Assembly: GCA_025363295.1 (NCBI GenBank)
Contig: JANYEC010000033.1
Location: 34,256 to 98,255, forward strand
Source: Akkermansiaceae bacterium
GTDB lineage: Bacteria > Verrucomicrobiota > Verrucomicrobiia > Verrucomicrobiales > Akkermansiaceae
Direction: 5' to 3'
DNA length: 64,000 nt
Below are positions 26,819-39,204 of this stretch, piece after piece (the first letter of the stretch is position 1; every line of letters begins with the position of its first letter). The notes under the pieces are model-generated. The model was not told the DNA's origin. It saw only the letters and a program-made list of their open reading frames with translations, and did no database searches. The position numbers and the translations under genes were made by a program.

Positions 26819-28897
26819 TCACAAGCTCCCCCGACCGTAGCGTTCGCGAAATTGGCGGAGCAAGTCATCCACGCGATCCGTGTCTGGTGCAGCGGGCGGC
26901 GGCGTAGGCTCGGCGGGCGGGTTCGACGAAGCGAAGATAGGCGGCTCAGCTGGCTGAGAGGAGGGCGCAGGCTCGGGTGAAAAAACTGGCGGGGCCATTT
27001 GAAAAGGTGAATCGATTTGTGGCTGATAGGACGCCGTTGACGGTGGTTGGAATGATGCTGCGGGTGGGTCTTGTGCAAAAATGTCCGGTGCCGCTTGGAA
27101 GGGTGAGGCGGAGGCTGGAGGGTTGAATTCAAATGCGGCGGCTGGCTCGGGCGGAAAAACCGGCGGAGTGACTTGAAATGGTGAATCCAACTGCGGCTGA
27201 TGGGAGATTACCGGCTCCTGCGAAAATGGAACCGCTGGGGGCTCCTGTGAAAAAATATCCGGTGCTACATGGAATGGAGACTCGGAAGCTGGCGGGTTGA
27301 ATTCAAATGCGGCCGTTGGGTCTGGCGAAACGACCTGCGGAGTCACTTGAAATGGATTCACTGGCGGCTGATAGGGAACTGCTGGCTCTGAATGACACTG
27401 CGCGGATGGCGCAGGCGGTTCGCCGAATGACGGAGCGGCTTGCGGTGCATCATGCCAATGTTGAGCAGGTGAATGCTCAGGCACATAAACCGGGGGGCAC
27501 GCCTGAAACGGTGAGTTTACAGCAGTTTCAGCGATGACGGGATTCGGAAAGAATTGAGGTGCAGGCCATGAGTTAGACTCTTCGTGCGTGGGCACGATTT
27601 CAACAGCCGGCGGGGCCAAAACGGGCTCAACCCCAGGCACTACGATCGCAGTTTCAGTTCGCGGGATTTCCGTGACCGCCTCGATTTCGGGCCGCTTTGC
27701 CTCAGGCACAGAGGCGAGGATTGCAGTGGGGGCGGAATCCATCGCTGATGCCTTGAGCCAAGCCAGACCCGCCGCACGGATCAGGCCGCGCGCGTGAGTT
27801 CCGGTAGAAGCCACGTCGATTTTTTCCAGCACCCGACTTCCCAATCCAGGGACGCGAGAATCTAGCAGCGCGATCATCTCAGATTCCGTTAGAGGGTCAA
27901 GTTCGATCACCACCTCCGAGAGACGGTCCGCGAGACCACCGCTCAGTCGGGGAAGGAAGGCACTCTGCCAGATGTCCTGATTGAGAGAGAGAATCACGTC
28001 CAAGCGCTCCACCGATTGGCGGAGAGATCCGAGAAAAGCGGCCAATCTCAGGGCTGCGGTTTCATCGGCAGAAAATCCTTCGAGGTCATCCGCGACAAGG
28101 ACGACGCGCATCAGCAGGGAAAGCAGTCCAAGGAGGGATTCCAGCCGTTCCATGGCTTCATTGTCTGATGGATTTCCCGCATGCACGCTTTCAGCCAGCG
28201 CCCTCACGCGGCCCGCATTTTCGACGGGGGTGGCCGCAAATCTGAACAAGGCTTCCACCCAGAATGCGACTTCGCGCACAGGCAGCCCGCAATTTTGTGC
28301 GAGTTCAAGGCTCAGGCGCTGACCCAGCACCTCAAAATTTTCTTGTGCCCAGTGCGCGGTCACTGCATTCGGGTGATGGAAGTCAAACGTTTCTATCGGG
28401 CGATTTCGTAAGGCCGTGAGCGCACCCTCACGATCCTGACATGGCACCTCGCCGGATGCCACTAACGGCTGCAAGGCGATTGCAAATAAACGCCGTGTCA
28501 CGAGATCTAACACACACATCCCACCCGATGCCGGAAGCGGACGCAGGAGGCGGCGAAGTGCATCGTCCGTGACCGATGCCGCGTCGATCCGGCAACCAAA
28601 TCCCGGCTGTAGTGGAATAAATTCGTGAGTCGATCCGAGGTAATGTTGGACTCGTGAGAGCAAATGCGTCTTTCCATGACCGGCGCGAGGAGCGCGTAGC
28701 AGGATGCATCGGCCGGTTTTCTCCAACGGAGCGGTCAGCATGTCAGACAAGATTTCGTAAGCCCGGCGATTGACCGATTCCGCGTGAGCAGCCGGGATCC
28801 GACCGAGGGTTTCGAAAAGCATTTGGAACGGGTGATCGTTGGCCATGGGGGTATTAAATCGGATTGGACGGAGATTGCATGCCTTTTCGTGATTCAC
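26819..28897 (-). CDS. AAA/P-loop ATPase with long Pro-rich repetitive C-terminus
   Basis: RAPRAGHGKTHLL Walker A, RVVLVADDLEGF Walker B; C-terminal repeats (SPFQVTPPVFPPEPAAAFEFNPPAS...). Confidence 0.7.
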   Translation of the reverse strand: MNHEKACNLRPIRFNTPMANDHPFQMLFETLGRIPAAHAESVNRRAYEILSDMLTAPLEKTGRCILLRAPRAGHGKTHLLSRVQHYLGSTHEFIPLQPGFGCRIDAASVTDDALRRLLRPLPASGGMCVLDLVTRRLFAIALQPLVASGEVPCQDREGALTALRNRPIETFDFHHPNAVTAHWAQENFEVLGQRLSLELAQNCGLPVREVAFWVEALFRFAATPVENAGRVRALAESVHAGNPSDNEAMERLESLLGLLSLLMRVVLVADDLEGFSADETAALRLAAFLGSLRQSVERLDVILSLNQDIWQSAFLPRLSGGLADRLSEVVIELDPLTESEMIALLDSRVPGLGSRVLEKIDVASTGTHARGLIRAAGLAWLKASAMDSAPTAILASVPEAKRPEIEAVTEIPRTETAIVVPGVEPVLAPPAVEIVPTHEESNSWPAPQFFPNPVIAETAVNSPFQACPPVYVPEHSPAQHWHDAPQAAPSFGEPPAPSAQCHSEPAVPYQPPVNPFQVTPQVVSPDPTAAFEFNPPASESPFHVAPDIFSQEPPAVPFSQEPVISHQPQLDSPFQVTPPVFPPEPAAAFEFNPPASASPFQAAPDIFAQDPPAASFQPPSTASYQPQIDSPFQMAPPVFSPEPAPSSQPAEPPIFASSNPPAEPTPPPAAPDTDRVDDLLRQFRERYGRGSL
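26960..27385 (-). repeat. In-frame tandem repeats (about 170-180 bp period) encoding the Pro/Phe-rich tail of the ATPase
   Basis: YQPPVNPFQVTPQ / HQPQLDSPFQVTPPV / YQPQIDSPFQMAPPV recur at regular spacing. Confidence 0.7.
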
Positions 28898-31648: not shown

Positions 31649-34600
31649 TCACATTCTCTTGCTGATTTCCCCAGCCAATGCCTCAACATGGTCAGGCGCG
31701 AACATGGTAAGATGCTTTCCGGCCACCTCCACAATCTCCATGGACTCGACTAATTTACCCCAACCGTAATCGTCGGGAATATCAAATTTATCATCGGTGG
31801 CCTGTGACTTGAAAAGTGTGATGTGGCAAGCGAGAGGATTCGGGTGAAATTCCTCCATCGATTTCCAATGAGCATCGCGAACTTTGAGCATTCGAAGATC
31901 GCTGTAAGGCTGGGTTATAGTCGTGCTTTTCACCGCCTGAATTTCCCCCTTGACCCTGAGATGAGTGGAAAGTCCATCACGAGCCCGGGCGAGCAAATGT
32001 CCAAGTCTTCTGAACAAATGCGTTTCACCTTTCGCTGCCCAGAAAACCTCCGCCCGCTCCCACAGGCCGTATTGCCTGATAGAAATCGCGGGATTGATCG
32101 TATCGAAAAGCCCGGCAAAGGCGACGGTCTCCCCCGCCTCCATCAGTTGGCGGGCCATTTCATAGACGAGCAGCCCACCATAGGAATATCCCGCGAGATG
32201 GTAGGGACCGTGCGCTTGATGCTCACTCAGCGCCGCAAGATACGTCGCGGCGGTTTCCTCCACCGGCACCGGTCGCACCTCCTCCTCTGCCGCAAGAGCC
32301 GGTGACTCAATCGCTAACAGAGGGCGCCCGGTAGGAAGATGCTTGCCGAGATCTTGATAGAAGAAGACGCCTCCGTCCCCGCCGTGGATGCAAAATAAGG
32401 GAGGCAGGTGCCCCTCAGGCCTCACGGGCACAACAATCGAGTGATGGGGCTTTACAGAAATTCTGTTAGCCTCATTTCTGTCAATCACTTCACCTAACAA
32501 ACGCGGAGTGGGAGCCTGGATGAGCATCGCCATCGGGATCCTAATTTTCCATTCCCGCCCGATTTGAGCGAAAAGCTGGAGAGCCGCAAGTGAGTGGCCG
32601 CCGAGTTCGAAAAATGATTCATCACGCCCGATTTTCTCGATGCCCAGCAAGGCGGACCACACTTCAGCTAACCGGATTTCTGTGGCGGTGGCAGGTGGAT
32701 CTGACGAGGCGTGCTGGCTTGCAGTTAGGCTTGGGTTAGGTAATCTTCGGCGGTCGAGCTTGCCCCGTTCCGTAAGGATAAATTCTTCTACCGCAGCCCA
32801 GCGAGTGGGGATCGCAGCGGTCGGCAAGTGAGCGGCGGCGTACACGGCGAGCTGTCCTGCCCAGCCATCTTCGGGTGATTGACTCCATCGGACCCAAGCA
32901 GCGAGCGAGGTGGAGCCGCCCCGGCCCGACACCGGCCCCACGTGAGCCGCCGAGACACCGGGAAACATTTCTAACACCCGGATGACTTCGTTAGGTTCCA
33001 CTCGGTTGCCACGGATTTTTAATTGGTCATCCTGCCGCCCTAGGAACCGAAGATCGCCGGCGTCATCCCAGAAAACGCGGTCACCGGTACGATACCACGC
33101 ACGCCCATCCATGAAATGAAAAGCATCTGCCGTGAGGTCTGGTCGTTGCCAGTAGCCCGCGCCCACGCAGATTCCTCCCAGCCAGAGTTCGCCTGCGGCC
33201 CCGGGTGGCAAGCTCCGCCCAGAAGCATCGCATACCCGCGCAAAAACTCCTGGCAGCGGACGGCCAATCGCCGGATCGCCGGATTCGTTCCAACTGCCAT
33301 CAATCAACTCCGCCGTGCCGACGATGGACGCCTCAGTGGGGCCATAAGTATTAATGAGAAAGTTCTGCCTGCCGCCCGCCTCGAACCAATCTTTGACGGC
33401 TGCGGCCGATGCCCTTTCACCGCCGATGATCGTCGTCCGCACCTGTTCAGGAATGGTTTCCTTTTCCGAAACCATCCAAGCACACCACGCCGCCCAATGC
33501 GCAGTGGATAGATCGAGCACGGTGATGCCAGCACTGCGGATGAATTTGTGAAAGTCATCGAGATCAGCTGCTAGATTTTCCGGGCGCGGAACGAGCGTCG
33601 CACCGCTGAGCAAAGTTGCCAAAAGCTCTTCAAGCGATGCATCGAATCCGGGCGACGCGAATTGCAACACCCGGTCACCAGGCTCGATGCTAGCCAGCCC
33701 TGCCATGCCGAGTGCTTCGTTGGTGACACCACCATGAACCATCATCACCCCTTTCGGTCGGCCGGTGGAGCCCGAGGTATAGAGAATGGCGAGGGTCGCG
33801 CGGGGATCGTTAGATAACTCCGTGTTACAAGTCCTTCCTCTCATGCCATCAACCTCAGTGCAGGGAAGGGAGAACTCAGCGCAAGCGTTAGGGTCGTCGC
33901 TAAGAATGAGGAGTGGCCCCGCATCGTCGATGATCGCGCGCAGACGATTCTGCGGCAAAGTCGGGTCCAGAGGCACATTAATCGCGCCGATCCTAGCAAC
34001 CGCTAACAAAACGACCGCTAAATTTTTCCGATCCCAAAGCATGCTCGCGACCGTAAGTCCGGGGCTCAATCCCGCTTCCTGCAAACGGGCGGCCAAGTGC
34101 TCCACCTGTGCGTCGAGTTCGGAATAACTGATCGCCCCGTCCGTCGTCCAAATTGCTTCCCGTAGGGCAAATTTTTCCACTGAGTCCCGCCAAGCCGTTG
34201 CCAAGTGGAGGTGGGCTGCTGGCTGACCACCGGATTCCCACTGATCGAGAAAGTCTCGCATGGGGGCTGGCAGTGCCGTTAAATTCGCTGCATCTGTCGC
34301 ACTCTCATCCGCGAGGTGGGTGATGATTGCCGCCCATTGATCTAGCAGAGATTGCGCCGCACGAACACCAAACTGTCGCCCATTCACCTCGACTTCGAGC
34401 TGCAGCTCGGGACGAATCCAAGCGCTCGCAAACAAAGGTTCGCCACCCAATTCGTGGATGGTGACAGATTCAATTCCTTCCGTTTTCCCCAATTGATCGT
34501 GGAGTGTCCCACGTTGCACCATGATCACTCCCCCAGGCCATGGCCCGCTGGTCTCCTGAAAAATCCCGGAGGGAAGATCCTGCGGGGAAACGTTTTCAAT

Positions 34601-35488
34601 CAAACGCATATCTAGCAGATGCTTGCGGAAATCTCGCAAGACCGGCATCGCGGACCCTGACACTGCACGCGGGATCACCAGCGGCACCGTATTCATGGAA
34701 AACCCAGCCTCATGAGGCCGTGGGGGTCCGGAACGCACTTGGCCAACAGCGACCATGTCTGCTCCAGCGGTGCGCCCGACCGCCTGCCCCCATGCCCAGG
34801 TAATTAGGGTTGGCACGGTGACCTCCATGCTACCAGCAACAGCCTCAATGCGGGCCACTGTTTCAATACCAAGGCAGCGATTCACACGCGTCGGGGCATT
34901 TTCCTCACCCGGGAATTCTAACTCAAATGCCTCTATTACCGCAAAAGCTCGGTGATGGAATTCTGTCGCTTGTTGGATCTCCTCCGATCCGGACGGGGCT
35001 AACAGGGCAAGCTCCAAGCCTCCTGGATCGTCCCCGTCGATTAACCGTGCATGAAACGCCCTAAGGATTTTTTCGATAGAAGCACCATCAAGCAGCGCGT
35101 GATGAAACGTCCACACGAGTCTCCCAGCGGTCGGCCATATCACCATCCGCCACGGCAAGCCTCCGCCGAGAGGAAAAGGCTTTACCCGATCCGCAGCAAG
35201 CCATGCACTCCAAGAAGAAGGTGTTTCCGTTTCGGTTCGGATTGGCGATTCGGCAGCTAGAGAATGAATTCCGCAGGGTTCACCTTCACTTACGAGAAAT
35301 CCGGATGCGAGAGCGGCGGTCTGCTCCACGGTCGCAAGCCATGCCGGATGCACCCGACTCATGGATAAATCCGCGCTGAAAACGATTTCAACCTGCTCCA
35401 CGTTTCTGCCCGAGCATTCTGCCAGCGAGTCGCGCAACATCGCGGCTTGCAAGTGAGAAATCGGGCGGACTGGTTGAAGATCAGACAT
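31649..35488 (-). CDS. Single-module nonribosomal peptide synthetase (C-A-T-TE)
   Basis: FHHALLDG (C); ILYTSGSTGRPKGV and NTYGPTEASIVGT (A); FFELGGHSLAALQLF (T); FCIHGGDGGVFFYQDL...LAGYSYGGLLVYEMA (TE). Confidence 0.95.
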   Translation of the reverse strand: MSDLQPVRPISHLQAAMLRDSLAECSGRNVEQVEIVFSADLSMSRVHPAWLATVEQTAALASGFLVSEGEPCGIHSLAAESPIRTETETPSSWSAWLAADRVKPFPLGGGLPWRMVIWPTAGRLVWTFHHALLDGASIEKILRAFHARLIDGDDPGGLELALLAPSGSEEIQQATEFHHRAFAVIEAFELEFPGEENAPTRVNRCLGIETVARIEAVAGSMEVTVPTLITWAWGQAVGRTAGADMVAVGQVRSGPPRPHEAGFSMNTVPLVIPRAVSGSAMPVLRDFRKHLLDMRLIENVSPQDLPSGIFQETSGPWPGGVIMVQRGTLHDQLGKTEGIESVTIHELGGEPLFASAWIRPELQLEVEVNGRQFGVRAAQSLLDQWAAIITHLADESATDAANLTALPAPMRDFLDQWESGGQPAAHLHLATAWRDSVEKFALREAIWTTDGAISYSELDAQVEHLAARLQEAGLSPGLTVASMLWDRKNLAVVLLAVARIGAINVPLDPTLPQNRLRAIIDDAGPLLILSDDPNACAEFSLPCTEVDGMRGRTCNTELSNDPRATLAILYTSGSTGRPKGVMMVHGGVTNEALGMAGLASIEPGDRVLQFASPGFDASLEELLATLLSGATLVPRPENLAADLDDFHKFIRSAGITVLDLSTAHWAAWCAWMVSEKETIPEQVRTTIIGGERASAAAVKDWFEAGGRQNFLINTYGPTEASIVGTAELIDGSWNESGDPAIGRPLPGVFARVCDASGRSLPPGAAGELWLGGICVGAGYWQRPDLTADAFHFMDGRAWYRTGDRVFWDDAGDLRFLGRQDDQLKIRGNRVEPNEVIRVLEMFPGVSAAHVGPVSGRGGSTSLAAWVRWSQSPEDGWAGQLAVYAAAHLPTAAIPTRWAAVEEFILTERGKLDRRRLPNPSLTASQHASSDPPATATEIRLAEVWSALLGIEKIGRDESFFELGGHSLAALQLFAQIGREWKIRIPMAMLIQAPTPRLLGEVIDRNEANRISVKPHHSIVVPVRPEGHLPPLFCIHGGDGGVFFYQDLGKHLPTGRPLLAIESPALAAEEEVRPVPVEETAATYLAALSEHQAHGPYHLAGYSYGGLLVYEMARQLMEAGETVAFAGLFDTINPAISIRQYGLWERAEVFWAAKGETHLFRRLGHLLARARDGLSTHLRVKGEIQAVKSTTITQPYSDLRMLKVRDAHWKSMEEFHPNPLACHITLFKSQATDDKFDIPDDYGWGKLVESMEIVEVAGKHLTMFAPDHVEALAGEISKRM

Positions 35489-35588
35489 TCAGGTATCGGC
35501 GTTTCAGGGACATAAATTTGTTAGCGATTAGTAAGAAATAAAAGTATGGGCTTGGCAATCACTCAGTCAAATTATGCATGTGGGTGCT

Positions 35589-36740
35589 TTATTTTTTCCA
35601 ATATGAATAGAGCTGATTGAAAAGCTCCGATTGCAAGATCCGGCTCAACAGCGGGGAAATGATAGGGATCTTCGGGAGGATAAACAAATCGTACAACGAG
35701 CGCTTTTGCATGCCCCAGTTTTTGTGCCATGCCGCATCTGCGACACAGTTGATCTCATCCACATCCCCCATTCTGCAAGCATGCTCGATGGCCTTTGCCA
35801 GCAACAAATTCCCCGGCGAACACAATGAGTAAGACTCGTCGTGGCCAATTTTCAGAAGGAACAGGGTTCGCTTGATGCGGACTGCATAATGCGCACCAAT
35901 CGTCTTGTTCTTGGTCTCGATAAGATTCCATTCCATCCATCCTTCATTCTCAAAACGTTCAGCGGCGATCGTATAAAAACGCGAACTTCCAGCCACGGAT
36001 TTAATCGAAGTATTTTCCGCGCCTTTCCACCCGGCATCTTCGACTTCCTCAAAACGTCTCATGTTTTCAATTAAAGAACGTGATCGCTCACGACAATGAA
36101 ACATAACTTCTTCGAGCTCCTGCAATTTCTTGCTTCCGCGTTTCAACTGCCGACGGAAGTTAGACGAAAGTTCAGAACGATATTTTTCAAAATCTCCTAA
36201 TATCGGAATATAACCCTCAGCCCCAGAAAGATTCTTAACGACGCTGAGCTTGCTCCCAGCCCGCCTCAAATAAACCATCGTGGGTGAATGTTCCGGTAAT
36301 TCCCGCAGACGAATGAGCGGCCAAGTGCGAGGAATCAGAGAAAGGTAATCAACAAACACATCCACGATTTCCTCCCGACCGTGAAGTGTCAGACAATCCA
36401 CGCCGCTGGTGTGCAAATTATTATATGGCGTCTTGAGGCATAGGATAGAAAAACCCGGGACACCGAACGACCTAACGGAAATTAAAGGAAAGACTCCGAC
36501 TAAGCGCTCTCCTTCATATGCAAACAGACAAAGCCAAGACTCCGACTCCAATAGTTGTGTCTCAAAAAACGCGCTGATTTGCGGATAGGAAAGCATCGGC
36601 GAGGCAGCGGGCGATTGCAAAAGCAACTCCGCCCACGCGCGCGCATGCGGCGCAAGATCTTGAGCCGACCTAACATCCATGACCCGCAGACCACCCAACG
36701 GCTCAAACTTCCAAGGGGGTGGTATCAGTTGCTTCGTCAA
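35589..36740 (-). CDS. GNAT / BioF2 (CelD, FemAB-like) acyltransferase
   Basis: GAHYAVRIKRTLFLLKIGHDESYSLCSPGNLLLAKAIEHACRMGDVDEINC resembles the PF13480-type domain. Confidence 0.8.
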   Translation of the reverse strand: MTKQLIPPPWKFEPLGGLRVMDVRSAQDLAPHARAWAELLLQSPAASPMLSYPQISAFFETQLLESESWLCLFAYEGERLVGVFPLISVRSFGVPGFSILCLKTPYNNLHTSGVDCLTLHGREEIVDVFVDYLSLIPRTWPLIRLRELPEHSPTMVYLRRAGSKLSVVKNLSGAEGYIPILGDFEKYRSELSSNFRRQLKRGSKKLQELEEVMFHCRERSRSLIENMRRFEEVEDAGWKGAENTSIKSVAGSSRFYTIAAERFENEGWMEWNLIETKNKTIGAHYAVRIKRTLFLLKIGHDESYSLCSPGNLLLAKAIEHACRMGDVDEINCVADAAWHKNWGMQKRSLYDLFILPKIPIISPLLSRILQSELFNQLYSYWKK

Positions 36741-36764
36741 AATTTTGGTCTTTTCGGTTAAGTT

Positions 36765-38300
36765 CTATGGGCGAAAGATCCCTTTGATCTTTGCCTTCGC
36801 TCCTGCGGGAATCATCTGCGGCAGACCGGTTTTTTTCAAAACATTGATCACTTGCCGTGCGCGGCTGACCGGTTCGGGCGGATTGATTGGCTCTGATAGA
36901 ACATCCGGCCACAGCGCTTCAATGAGGTCGGCAAGCAACCTGAAGTCTGGCCCTCGGCGCATCCCAGCATCGACCGTCAGCATCACTCGCAACAGGCGTC
37001 GATTGCTGAGCGGTGCAAAACTTTCCTGAGCCATGTCGTATTCCGCACGGACCCTTGCCTGCCAGCGCCCGGCCATTTGTTCCCAACAGAAAAGATCCAG
37101 CAGGTTGATAGGTGGCTTATTAGAACTTTCCAGCCACTTGCCGAACGCTTGAACCGCGAATGGGTGCATGCCCAGCCCTCCGAGTTCCGCCAATTCGAGC
37201 GCCGAAATGGGCTCCGGCTCGCTTCGGCGCCGCTCATAGTAACACTTTACGATTTCAGCGACATCACCGGTGACACAGACACGATCACCCGGATAGACGG
37301 CATACAAGGACTGCGTATCCGCGCAGTAAGCGGAATTTGCGGAGGGGTTGTTACGGCGGAAAATCTCTTTAAATGCGACGTCGATCGTATCTGGATAAGG
37401 AACCAAATGATGCTCAATGCCAAGCTTTCCTAACAAACGATTTGGCACACACACATCTCTCGATTCGGTGGGCAGGTGGGGATAGACGAGGGTGAACGCG
37501 TAGAGATTTTCTGTGTATTCCCGGTGCAGGGCCAGCATCAGGCGGCTATCCCAGCCAGCCGTCATTGAGATCGCCAGTGGAAAGCGTCGCTGCGCACTGT
37601 CGATTTGTCCGCGAAGCAAGCGAATACATTCCGATAGAACTTCCGGATAAGACATCGGCGGAAGGGCTTGCTCCGGCCAAAACCGATGGCAAATCCCGTC
37701 TGATAGGGTAAGAAAATGATTCGGCAACAGAGCGCAAATTTCCGCATACAACGACGTATCTCCTGGCATCCAGTAGATTTCATAATCGTCCGATTTTCGC
37801 GAGTGAATGAAATCTACCGCACTGGCATCCATAGTAAGCCCGAGTTGCTCAGCCATCACACCGGGTTTGGACGCGCAGACCACGCTTTCGCCGATTTCTG
37901 GGCGGGTGAAATAGACTTGGCGCTGGCCCGTGGCATCATGTAGAACCGTGGTTTCCTTTCCGTCGTGAACGATTAGAACCCAACGACCCCCTAAGGTTTC
38001 GGCGTCCCGCAAAACATCCTTGGAGCACCCCATACTTACGATCAAGCGACGCAAGATTGCTTCGTTGCCAGCCTCGGGATCATCAGGATCGAGCGCGAAC
38101 CCTAGCAGAGTGAGGGACTTTTCCGCATGTTCGATATGGGTGAGTTCAAGATCTAAATGGGCGCTGAGATGATAGCACCCACCTATCAGAATCTGCTTAC
38201 CATCAGCCAGACCATGGCCGATTTCCTTACTCAGAATGAACTGTCGCCTAAATAACAGCTTATCGAGCTCCGCAGGTTCGTTAAGTTGCATTGATTTCAT
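36765..38300 (-). CDS. Asparagine synthetase-like protein (AsnB-like ATPase lacking catalytic N-terminal Cys)
   Basis: GGRWVLIVHDGKETTVLHDATGQRQVYF (GATase-like); SMTAGWDSRLMLAL PPi-loop variant. Confidence 0.8.
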   Translation of the reverse strand: MKSMQLNEPAELDKLLFRRQFILSKEIGHGLADGKQILIGGCYHLSAHLDLELTHIEHAEKSLTLLGFALDPDDPEAGNEAILRRLIVSMGCSKDVLRDAETLGGRWVLIVHDGKETTVLHDATGQRQVYFTRPEIGESVVCASKPGVMAEQLGLTMDASAVDFIHSRKSDDYEIYWMPGDTSLYAEICALLPNHFLTLSDGICHRFWPEQALPPMSYPEVLSECIRLLRGQIDSAQRRFPLAISMTAGWDSRLMLALHREYTENLYAFTLVYPHLPTESRDVCVPNRLLGKLGIEHHLVPYPDTIDVAFKEIFRRNNPSANSAYCADTQSLYAVYPGDRVCVTGDVAEIVKCYYERRRSEPEPISALELAELGGLGMHPFAVQAFGKWLESSNKPPINLLDLFCWEQMAGRWQARVRAEYDMAQESFAPLSNRRLLRVMLTVDAGMRRGPDFRLLADLIEALWPDVLSEPINPPEPVSRARQVINVLKKTGLPQMIPAGAKAKIKGIFRP

Positions 38301-38958
38301 GAGCGGAGTTGGAATGTGATAGATTCGCTTTACCTCGCAAAATCACGCGTTTAAGGGTCACCCATTGCTGACCGGTATGATAGAATAAATCGATGTGGCG
38401 TGCACCAAACCTGAACTGAATCCCTTGCGATGCAAAGGAATCTCGAAGCTCCGCAAATTCCCGTTTTGATAGACCATAAGCAAGCGTCACATGAAAGCGA
38501 AAGCGCGAATCTTCGATTGGCAGCGCTTGGATTCCCCACTGTCCCGCCAAGTCGAAAAGAATGCGTTGGCGAAGTTTTTCCAGCTCGGGATTTGCCTCCA
38601 CATCGAGAAATAAAATGCCCTCATCGAAAGAATCAAAACCCTTGATCACGATTTCAAACGGAACAACCTCATTGGCTAATTTCGCCAAATATTTTTCAAA
38701 TGGCGCGCTGTCCCTAACATTGAATCCCAGCTTGAGCGTGATGTGCGGAGAAGCCTCCAGCCCAGGATTGCGCCGATATTTCCGCAAGATGCTCACTTGC
38801 AATTGCGTGACCTGGTCCGCAGCCTCGCCATCGAGAGGGATCACGAGGGCAAGCGGCAGTTCATCGAGCGGACGGGCACGCAGACGGCTGGCCAATGAAC
38901 GTAACCAAGCACGCAGCGAAGATCGCTGCAAACTAGGTGCTGATAGCTCAAAAATCAT
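38281..38958 (-). CDS. 2H phosphoesterase / 2'-5' RNA ligase family protein
   Basis: Two HxT motifs: ASPHITLKLGF and FRFHVTLAYGLS. Start refined to MIFELSAPSL. Confidence 0.8.
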   Translation of the reverse strand: MIFELSAPSLQRSSLRAWLRSLASRLRARPLDELPLALVIPLDGEAADQVTQLQVSILRKYRRNPGLEASPHITLKLGFNVRDSAPFEKYLAKLANEVVPFEIVIKGFDSFDEGILFLDVEANPELEKLRQRILFDLAGQWGIQALPIEDSRFRFHVTLAYGLSKREFAELRDSFASQGIQFRFGARHIDLFYHTGQQWVTLKRVILRGKANLSHSNSAHEINAT

Positions 38959-39204
38959 TAGGAGGGAGTGGCAATCGCGAGGGCAAAATTTTACGGAAAA
39001 TAGACGCATGGCCAGAGTGGCATGAAACCGGCCGTTGGAAACCACGTAATCGCGTAATCGCGTAAATCCAGCTCTTTCTCGCCTGACTGCCCGCTTTCGC
39101 CTGAGTTTCCATCCACCCCCAGATCGCTGAAAAAACGGCACGGAAAAAGCCCGCCATTGCTTCCGGCGCGGGGCCTTGCATACTCACTGCGTTCCGCAAA
39201 ACGA

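Follow-up and report, generated by a model that had tools for sequence, protein, structure and literature searches.

What do four adjacent genes on the minus strand of an Akkermansiaceae bacterium make, and which of them form the core of the system? The genes occupy positions 31649-38958 of a 64,000-nucleotide stretch of contig JANYEC010000033.1, hereafter the window. All four open reading frames are intact and co-directional, in the order 2H phosphoesterase, AsnB-like ligase, GNAT_6 acyltransferase and nonribosomal peptide synthetase (NRPS) with condensation, adenylation, thiolation and thioesterase (C-A-T-TE) domains. The 2H and AsnB-like genes overlap by 20 bp and a 24-bp gap separates the AsnB-like and GNAT_6 genes, as a first-pass annotation of this DNA had reported; the NRPS gene follows after 100 bp. 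We propose, at a probability of roughly 0.45, that this is a rare and probably horizontally moved biosynthetic operon whose predicted product is a lysine-derived amide. The enzyme classes are known and the operon is real and conserved but rare; its arrangement matched no described pathway in the searches made.

The identical gene order was found in another species of the genus (G030), with identities of 69% for the NRPS, 64% for GNAT_6, 65% for the AsnB-like protein and 51% for the 2H protein, and with a GNAT/NRPS gap of only about 18 bp. Because the entire order recurs, the four-gene unit is not chance, and the expectation that relatives would keep it held for this one relative. In the window the operon is flanked, according to Pfam, by RecN/SMC-like and Zn-protease-like genes on one side and an aminotransferase gene on the other. 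The G030 operon, read by eye, lies between a FolK-like gene with a PDZ protease gene and a hydrolase gene with a topoisomerase-like gene. Since the flanks differ, either all four genes moved together or the genes around them did; horizontal movement of the operon is probable. The AsnB-like gene is present in 2 of 73 genus genomes; among 384 genomes of the class and 260 of the phylum, a close match came from the window's own genome only. A scan of about 85,000 species genomes, which detects close relatives only, produced two distant ones, in Sphaerotilus and Anaeromyxobacter metagenome-assembled genomes (L006 and L007). Order-wide and phylum-wide searches around these two revealed no additional close member. 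Viral contigs contained no relative, and plasmids contained remote AsnB relatives only. So few of the searched genomes contain the family that standard cluster mining could easily overlook it.

In the Sphaerotilus genome, 2H, AsnB and GNAT_6 genes overlap or lie about 20 bp apart, the GNAT_6 protein being just 13% identical to that of the window. Phosphonate-transporter-like genes adjoin this trio, incidentally in our view. In the Anaeromyxobacter genome, the 2H and AsnB genes overlap by 4 bp, and the opposite strand carries genes for a LysA-like decarboxylase, a hydrolase, a family 2 glycosyltransferase (GT2) and a GNAT_6 protein, then an ATP-grasp-like gene. All four loci thus show the 2H-AsnB overlap; a GNAT_6 gene directly adjoins the pair in three of them and lies close by in the other. 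No synthetase adjoins the trio in either of these genomes, and two congeners carry a synthetase gene alone, one C-A-T-TE (G999, 62% identical to the window NRPS) and one A-T-TE (G989, 51%). The shared unit is therefore 2H-AsnB plus GNAT_6, and the synthetase is an attachment. As judged from gene order, we conclude that the conserved centre across three lineages is the translationally coupled 2H-AsnB pair with GNAT_6, not the synthetase. The first-pass description of the cluster as NRPS-centred finds no support, the NRPS being part of the unit in two species and solo elsewhere. The LysA-like pyridoxal phosphate-dependent decarboxylase beside the Anaeromyxobacter 2H-AsnB pair (L039:16947-18539, the same locus) is an independent hint of diamino-acid chemistry.

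Pfam matches of the synthetase to AMP-binding, PP-binding and Thioesterase were strong; the Condensation match fell 0.6 bit short of the cut-off, with HHxxxDG kept. The core motifs HHALLDG, A3, LGGHS and GYSYGG are intact. A single C-A-T-TE module activating one amino acid had been annotated, and the amino acid can now be refined to predicted lysine. The window and G999 share the adenylation-domain code DAEDIGTIV(K), whose G030 counterpart is DAEDIGTVV(K); position 517 was taken as the invariant K, an assumption made without alignment. Six myxobacterial MxcG proteins scoring over the curated cut-off read DAEDIGTVV(K), identical to G030 and one residue (I for V) from the window. L-lysine is the substrate loaded by MxcG (PMC8400222), and the code match makes L-lysine a well-based prediction for the window enzyme. 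The lysine code was taken directly from the MxcG proteins; literature on the code string yielded nothing useful. Four other synthetases of the genus have quite different codes, DALWLGGTF or DAFWLGGTF.

In a tree rooted at the midpoint only, the C domain grouped with C-like proteins that stand alone in genomes of the genus (40-43% identity), and 100/100 support separated this group from MxcG and the remaining C domains. This suggests that the synthetase arose by fusion of a free-standing acyltransferase-like protein with an A-T-TE protein. The stand-alone proteins (L053-L059, e.g. L055:9338-10471 and L054:9370-10497) occur in several genus genomes; they are about 375 aa long, contain HHALLDG and lack A and T domains. 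Four of the seven loci read have a response-regulator-like neighbour, and the other three an extracytoplasmic function (ECF)-sigma-like/anti-sigma-like pair.

Searches of Pfam, NCBIfam and PDB sequences with the window AsnB-like protein gave nothing firm. Its relatives (65% identical in G030, 45-47% in the Sphaerotilus and Anaeromyxobacter genomes) place it in the AsnB superfamily: the Anaeromyxobacter protein matches TIGR01536 (7.5e-8), and remote relatives match PF00733 over the cut-off. An AlphaFold model built from seven sequences reached pLDDT 79 and pTM 0.83, whereas four sequences had given a pLDDT of just 44. Foldseek ranked carbapenam synthetase first (8.8e-14), followed by beta-lactam synthetase and then AsnB, at TM-scores of about 0.5-0.6, so that the domain arrangement may differ from the matched structures. 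The protein has the two-domain AsnB fold and the PP-loop of ATP-dependent amide ligases, the latter as the variant MTAGWDSR at 37565-37542. Alignment to E. coli AsnB revealed that SGGLDSS is replaced by TAGWDSR and that the nucleophile Cys2 is absent. The glutaminase cysteine is also missing from the three close relatives, which removes the family from glutamine-dependent AsnB and WbpS enzymes. Absence of Cys2 together with the lactam-synthetase-like fold predicts amide-bond formation without glutamine hydrolysis; according to the model, the protein should be an amide ligase rather than a glutamine-dependent amidotransferase. The carboxylate-activating role assigned earlier is supported. Glutamine-dependent amidation by this protein was rejected for lack of Cys2. 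Of the product classes suggested in the first-pass annotation, a small amide metabolite and surface-polymer decoration are both retained, and amidation with glutamine-derived ammonia is unlikely. Remote relatives with 23-28% identity lie in a capsule locus of E. coli plasmid pCE1537-B, in a Natrinema glycan locus and in a Pseudorhodobacter plasmid exopolysaccharide locus, and another (G460) adjoins a flippase-like gene. The pCE1537-B protein (L061:7035-9380) is 781 aa long, its C-terminal part being 23% identical to the window ligase.

The 2H protein matches PF13563 (2_5_RNA_ligase2, 2e-19) and contains HIT at 38745-38737 and HVT at 38493-38485. Both HxT motifs are retained in all four homologues, the second as HAT in Anaeromyxobacter. 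A longer frame from an upstream GTG spans 38281-39141, but similarity to G030 begins only past about residue 67 of it, so the ATG at 38958, as annotated before, is the better start. The acyltransferase matches PF13480 (Acetyltransf_6, 1.2e-18, residues 193-334) and no other family. The earlier acyltransferase assignment stands in this form; the FemAB label is loose, the protein showing no match to the FemAB family proper of aminoacyl-tRNA transferases (PF02388). On the whole, what that annotation observed was confirmed, and its interpretation is partly supported.

These assignments can be combined into a pathway, with no fixed order of steps implied. The A domain would load L-lysine onto the carrier domain. 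The C domain, without an upstream module, would join lysine to an acyl group that CoA or a carrier donates in trans, and the TE domain would release acyl-lysine. The AsnB-like ligase would adenylate a carboxylate and close an amide bond on a substrate amine without glutamine, either intramolecularly or with a second molecule. GNAT_6 may acylate a remaining amine or hydroxyl, and the 2H enzyme may open or remove a phosphoester on an intermediate. Several points weigh against a lysine-derived amide: the operon encodes no dedicated acyl-donor enzyme or carrier, the full gene set is known in just two instances, the capsule-locus relatives of the ligase favour work on glycans, and no Sfp-type phosphopantetheinyl transferase (PPTase) was found in the 94%-complete host genome. 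The only ACPS-family gene there is AcpS, beside a PdxJ-like gene; the earlier finding of no PPTase in the window thus extends genome-wide except for AcpS. With AcpS as the sole PPTase found, the synthetase may never be primed in this host. In G030 a second, Sfp-like ACPS-family gene is close to a different, larger NRPS locus (L041/L015, G030:C143) with the code DALWLGGTF; other genus members have a similar code.

An operon that is inactive in the host, its carrier domain not being primable, would fit this AcpS-only inventory; we nevertheless hold it very improbable, since every reading frame and catalytic motif is intact and the priming might be done by AcpS or by an Sfp enzyme encoded in sequence that the assembly lacks. 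The main rival is decoration of a surface glycan, in which the ligase would link lysine, or acyl-lysine made by the synthetase, to a uronic-acid carboxylate of the glycan, GNAT_6 would acylate the substituent and the 2H enzyme would trim a glycan or carrier phosphodiester. The remote relatives in capsule and exopolysaccharide loci and beside the flippase-like gene agree with it, as do the GT2, GNAT_6, ATP-grasp-like and LysA-like genes at the Anaeromyxobacter locus. So does the literature: Burkholderiales exopolysaccharide clusters contain AsnB/WbpS-like genes, WbpS making uronamides, together with FemAB-like genes (PMC3684757). The capsule-associated proteins are, however, merely 23-28% identical to the ligase, and the TE domain suggests a released product. 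Moreover, no glycan gene was recognised adjoining the operon in the window, in G030 or at the Sphaerotilus locus, and with three of the four close loci lacking one, glycan decoration is weakened to a doubtful, second-ranked explanation.

Two side-by-side units are less probable again: the trio would make its own product and a solo-type lysine synthetase would merely be co-transcribed. The Sphaerotilus trio without an adjacent NRPS, the trio-less synthetases of G999 and G989 and the 100-bp gap ahead of the window NRPS gene fit such a pairing. It is harder to reconcile with the short G030 gap and with a four-gene arrangement kept in two species at just 51-69% identity within different flanks. 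Beyond the lysine-derived amide itself, a bolder version is rather improbable, namely that 2H-AsnB-GNAT_6 is an undescribed, phylum-hopping tailoring module whose glutaminase-less ligase turns a lysine unit into a lactam or conjugate, coupled here to a dedicated lysine synthetase and giving a new metabolite class. If the trio is indeed a transferable amide-forming module, it offers a short gene signature with which several phyla can be searched for uncharacterised pathways. The lysine prediction makes the window operon testable by one biochemical assay.

Table 1. Genes and synthetase domains of the operon (window coordinates)
Feature	Coordinates	Strand	Basis
2H phosphoesterase (LigT/2'-5' RNA ligase-like), operon gene 1	38281..38958	-	PF13563, HxT motifs, homology-based start
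AsnB-like putative ATP-dependent amide ligase without glutaminase cysteine, 511 aa	36765..38300	-	relatives, remote PF00733/TIGR01536, fold
GNAT-fold acyltransferase, Acetyltransf_6, FemAB/BioF2-like, 383 aa	35589..36740	-	PF13480, G030 orthologue
Single-module NRPS, C-A-T-TE, 1279 aa	31649..35488	-	Pfam, motifs, orthologues in G030 and G999
Condensation domain, HHALLDG intact	34244..35488	-	Pfam 30.0 vs cut-off 30.6 bits, motif
Adenylation domain, code DAEDIGTIV(K), predicted L-lysine	32741..34186	-	AMP-binding, code comparison
Thiolation (carrier) domain, LGGHS site	32489..32674	-	PP-binding, motif
Thioesterase domain, GYSYGG	31658..32404	-	Thioesterase, motif

Family searches in the window recognised no transporter, regulator or glycan gene inside or beside the operon, and no glycosyltransferase or polymer-export gene beside it. 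Promoter-like sites around the operon were below the shuffled mean; terminator-like sites were about 2 standard deviations over it, yet scattered. Elsewhere in the window, 26819-28897 encodes a protein of 692 aa whose N-terminal part is ATPase-like and whose long C-terminal part is repetitive and rich in proline.

Among known systems, MxcG of the myxochelin pathway resembles the window synthetase in its C-A-T module, its lysine code DAEDIGTVVK and the absence of an upstream module on the same chain. MxcG, however, ends in a reductase and works with the dihydroxybenzoic acid (DHBA) enzymes MxcC-F, whereas the window synthetase ends in a TE domain. The A domains are about 35% identical, the C domains belong to different clades, and the window synthetase scores 361 bits against NF038078, whose cut-off is 2300 bits. 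A myxochelin-like catechol siderophore was rejected because a TE replaces the reductase and no DHBA genes were recognised around the operon. WbpS/AsnB-like exopolysaccharide proteins share the AsnB superfamily with the window ligase and are often near FemAB/GNAT_6-type genes; WbpS-type enzymes are glutamine-dependent, whereas the nucleophile is missing from the window family, most of whose close members are found outside glycan loci. Exosortase/PEP-CTERM-associated sets of AsnB, FemAB and acyl-ligase genes have a similar mix of enzyme classes, but an exosortase-associated role was rejected, as no such NCBIfam model matches the AsnB-like or GNAT_6 protein at E <= 1. The host's second carrier-bearing synthetase (G000:C9, L037:105-4328), which we take to resemble Pls/PosA-type enzymes, is likewise a one-module protein containing an A and a T domain; it differs in its code, DFEYNGTIT, and in its C-terminal membrane and hexapeptide-repeat-like parts. 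Carbapenam and beta-lactam synthetases, in turn, resemble the AsnB-like ligase by fold only: at 12-14% identity and with carbapenam or clavam partner enzymes absent from the window operon, they have in common with it the AsnB fold, a PP-loop ATPase and the lack of the glutaminase cysteine.

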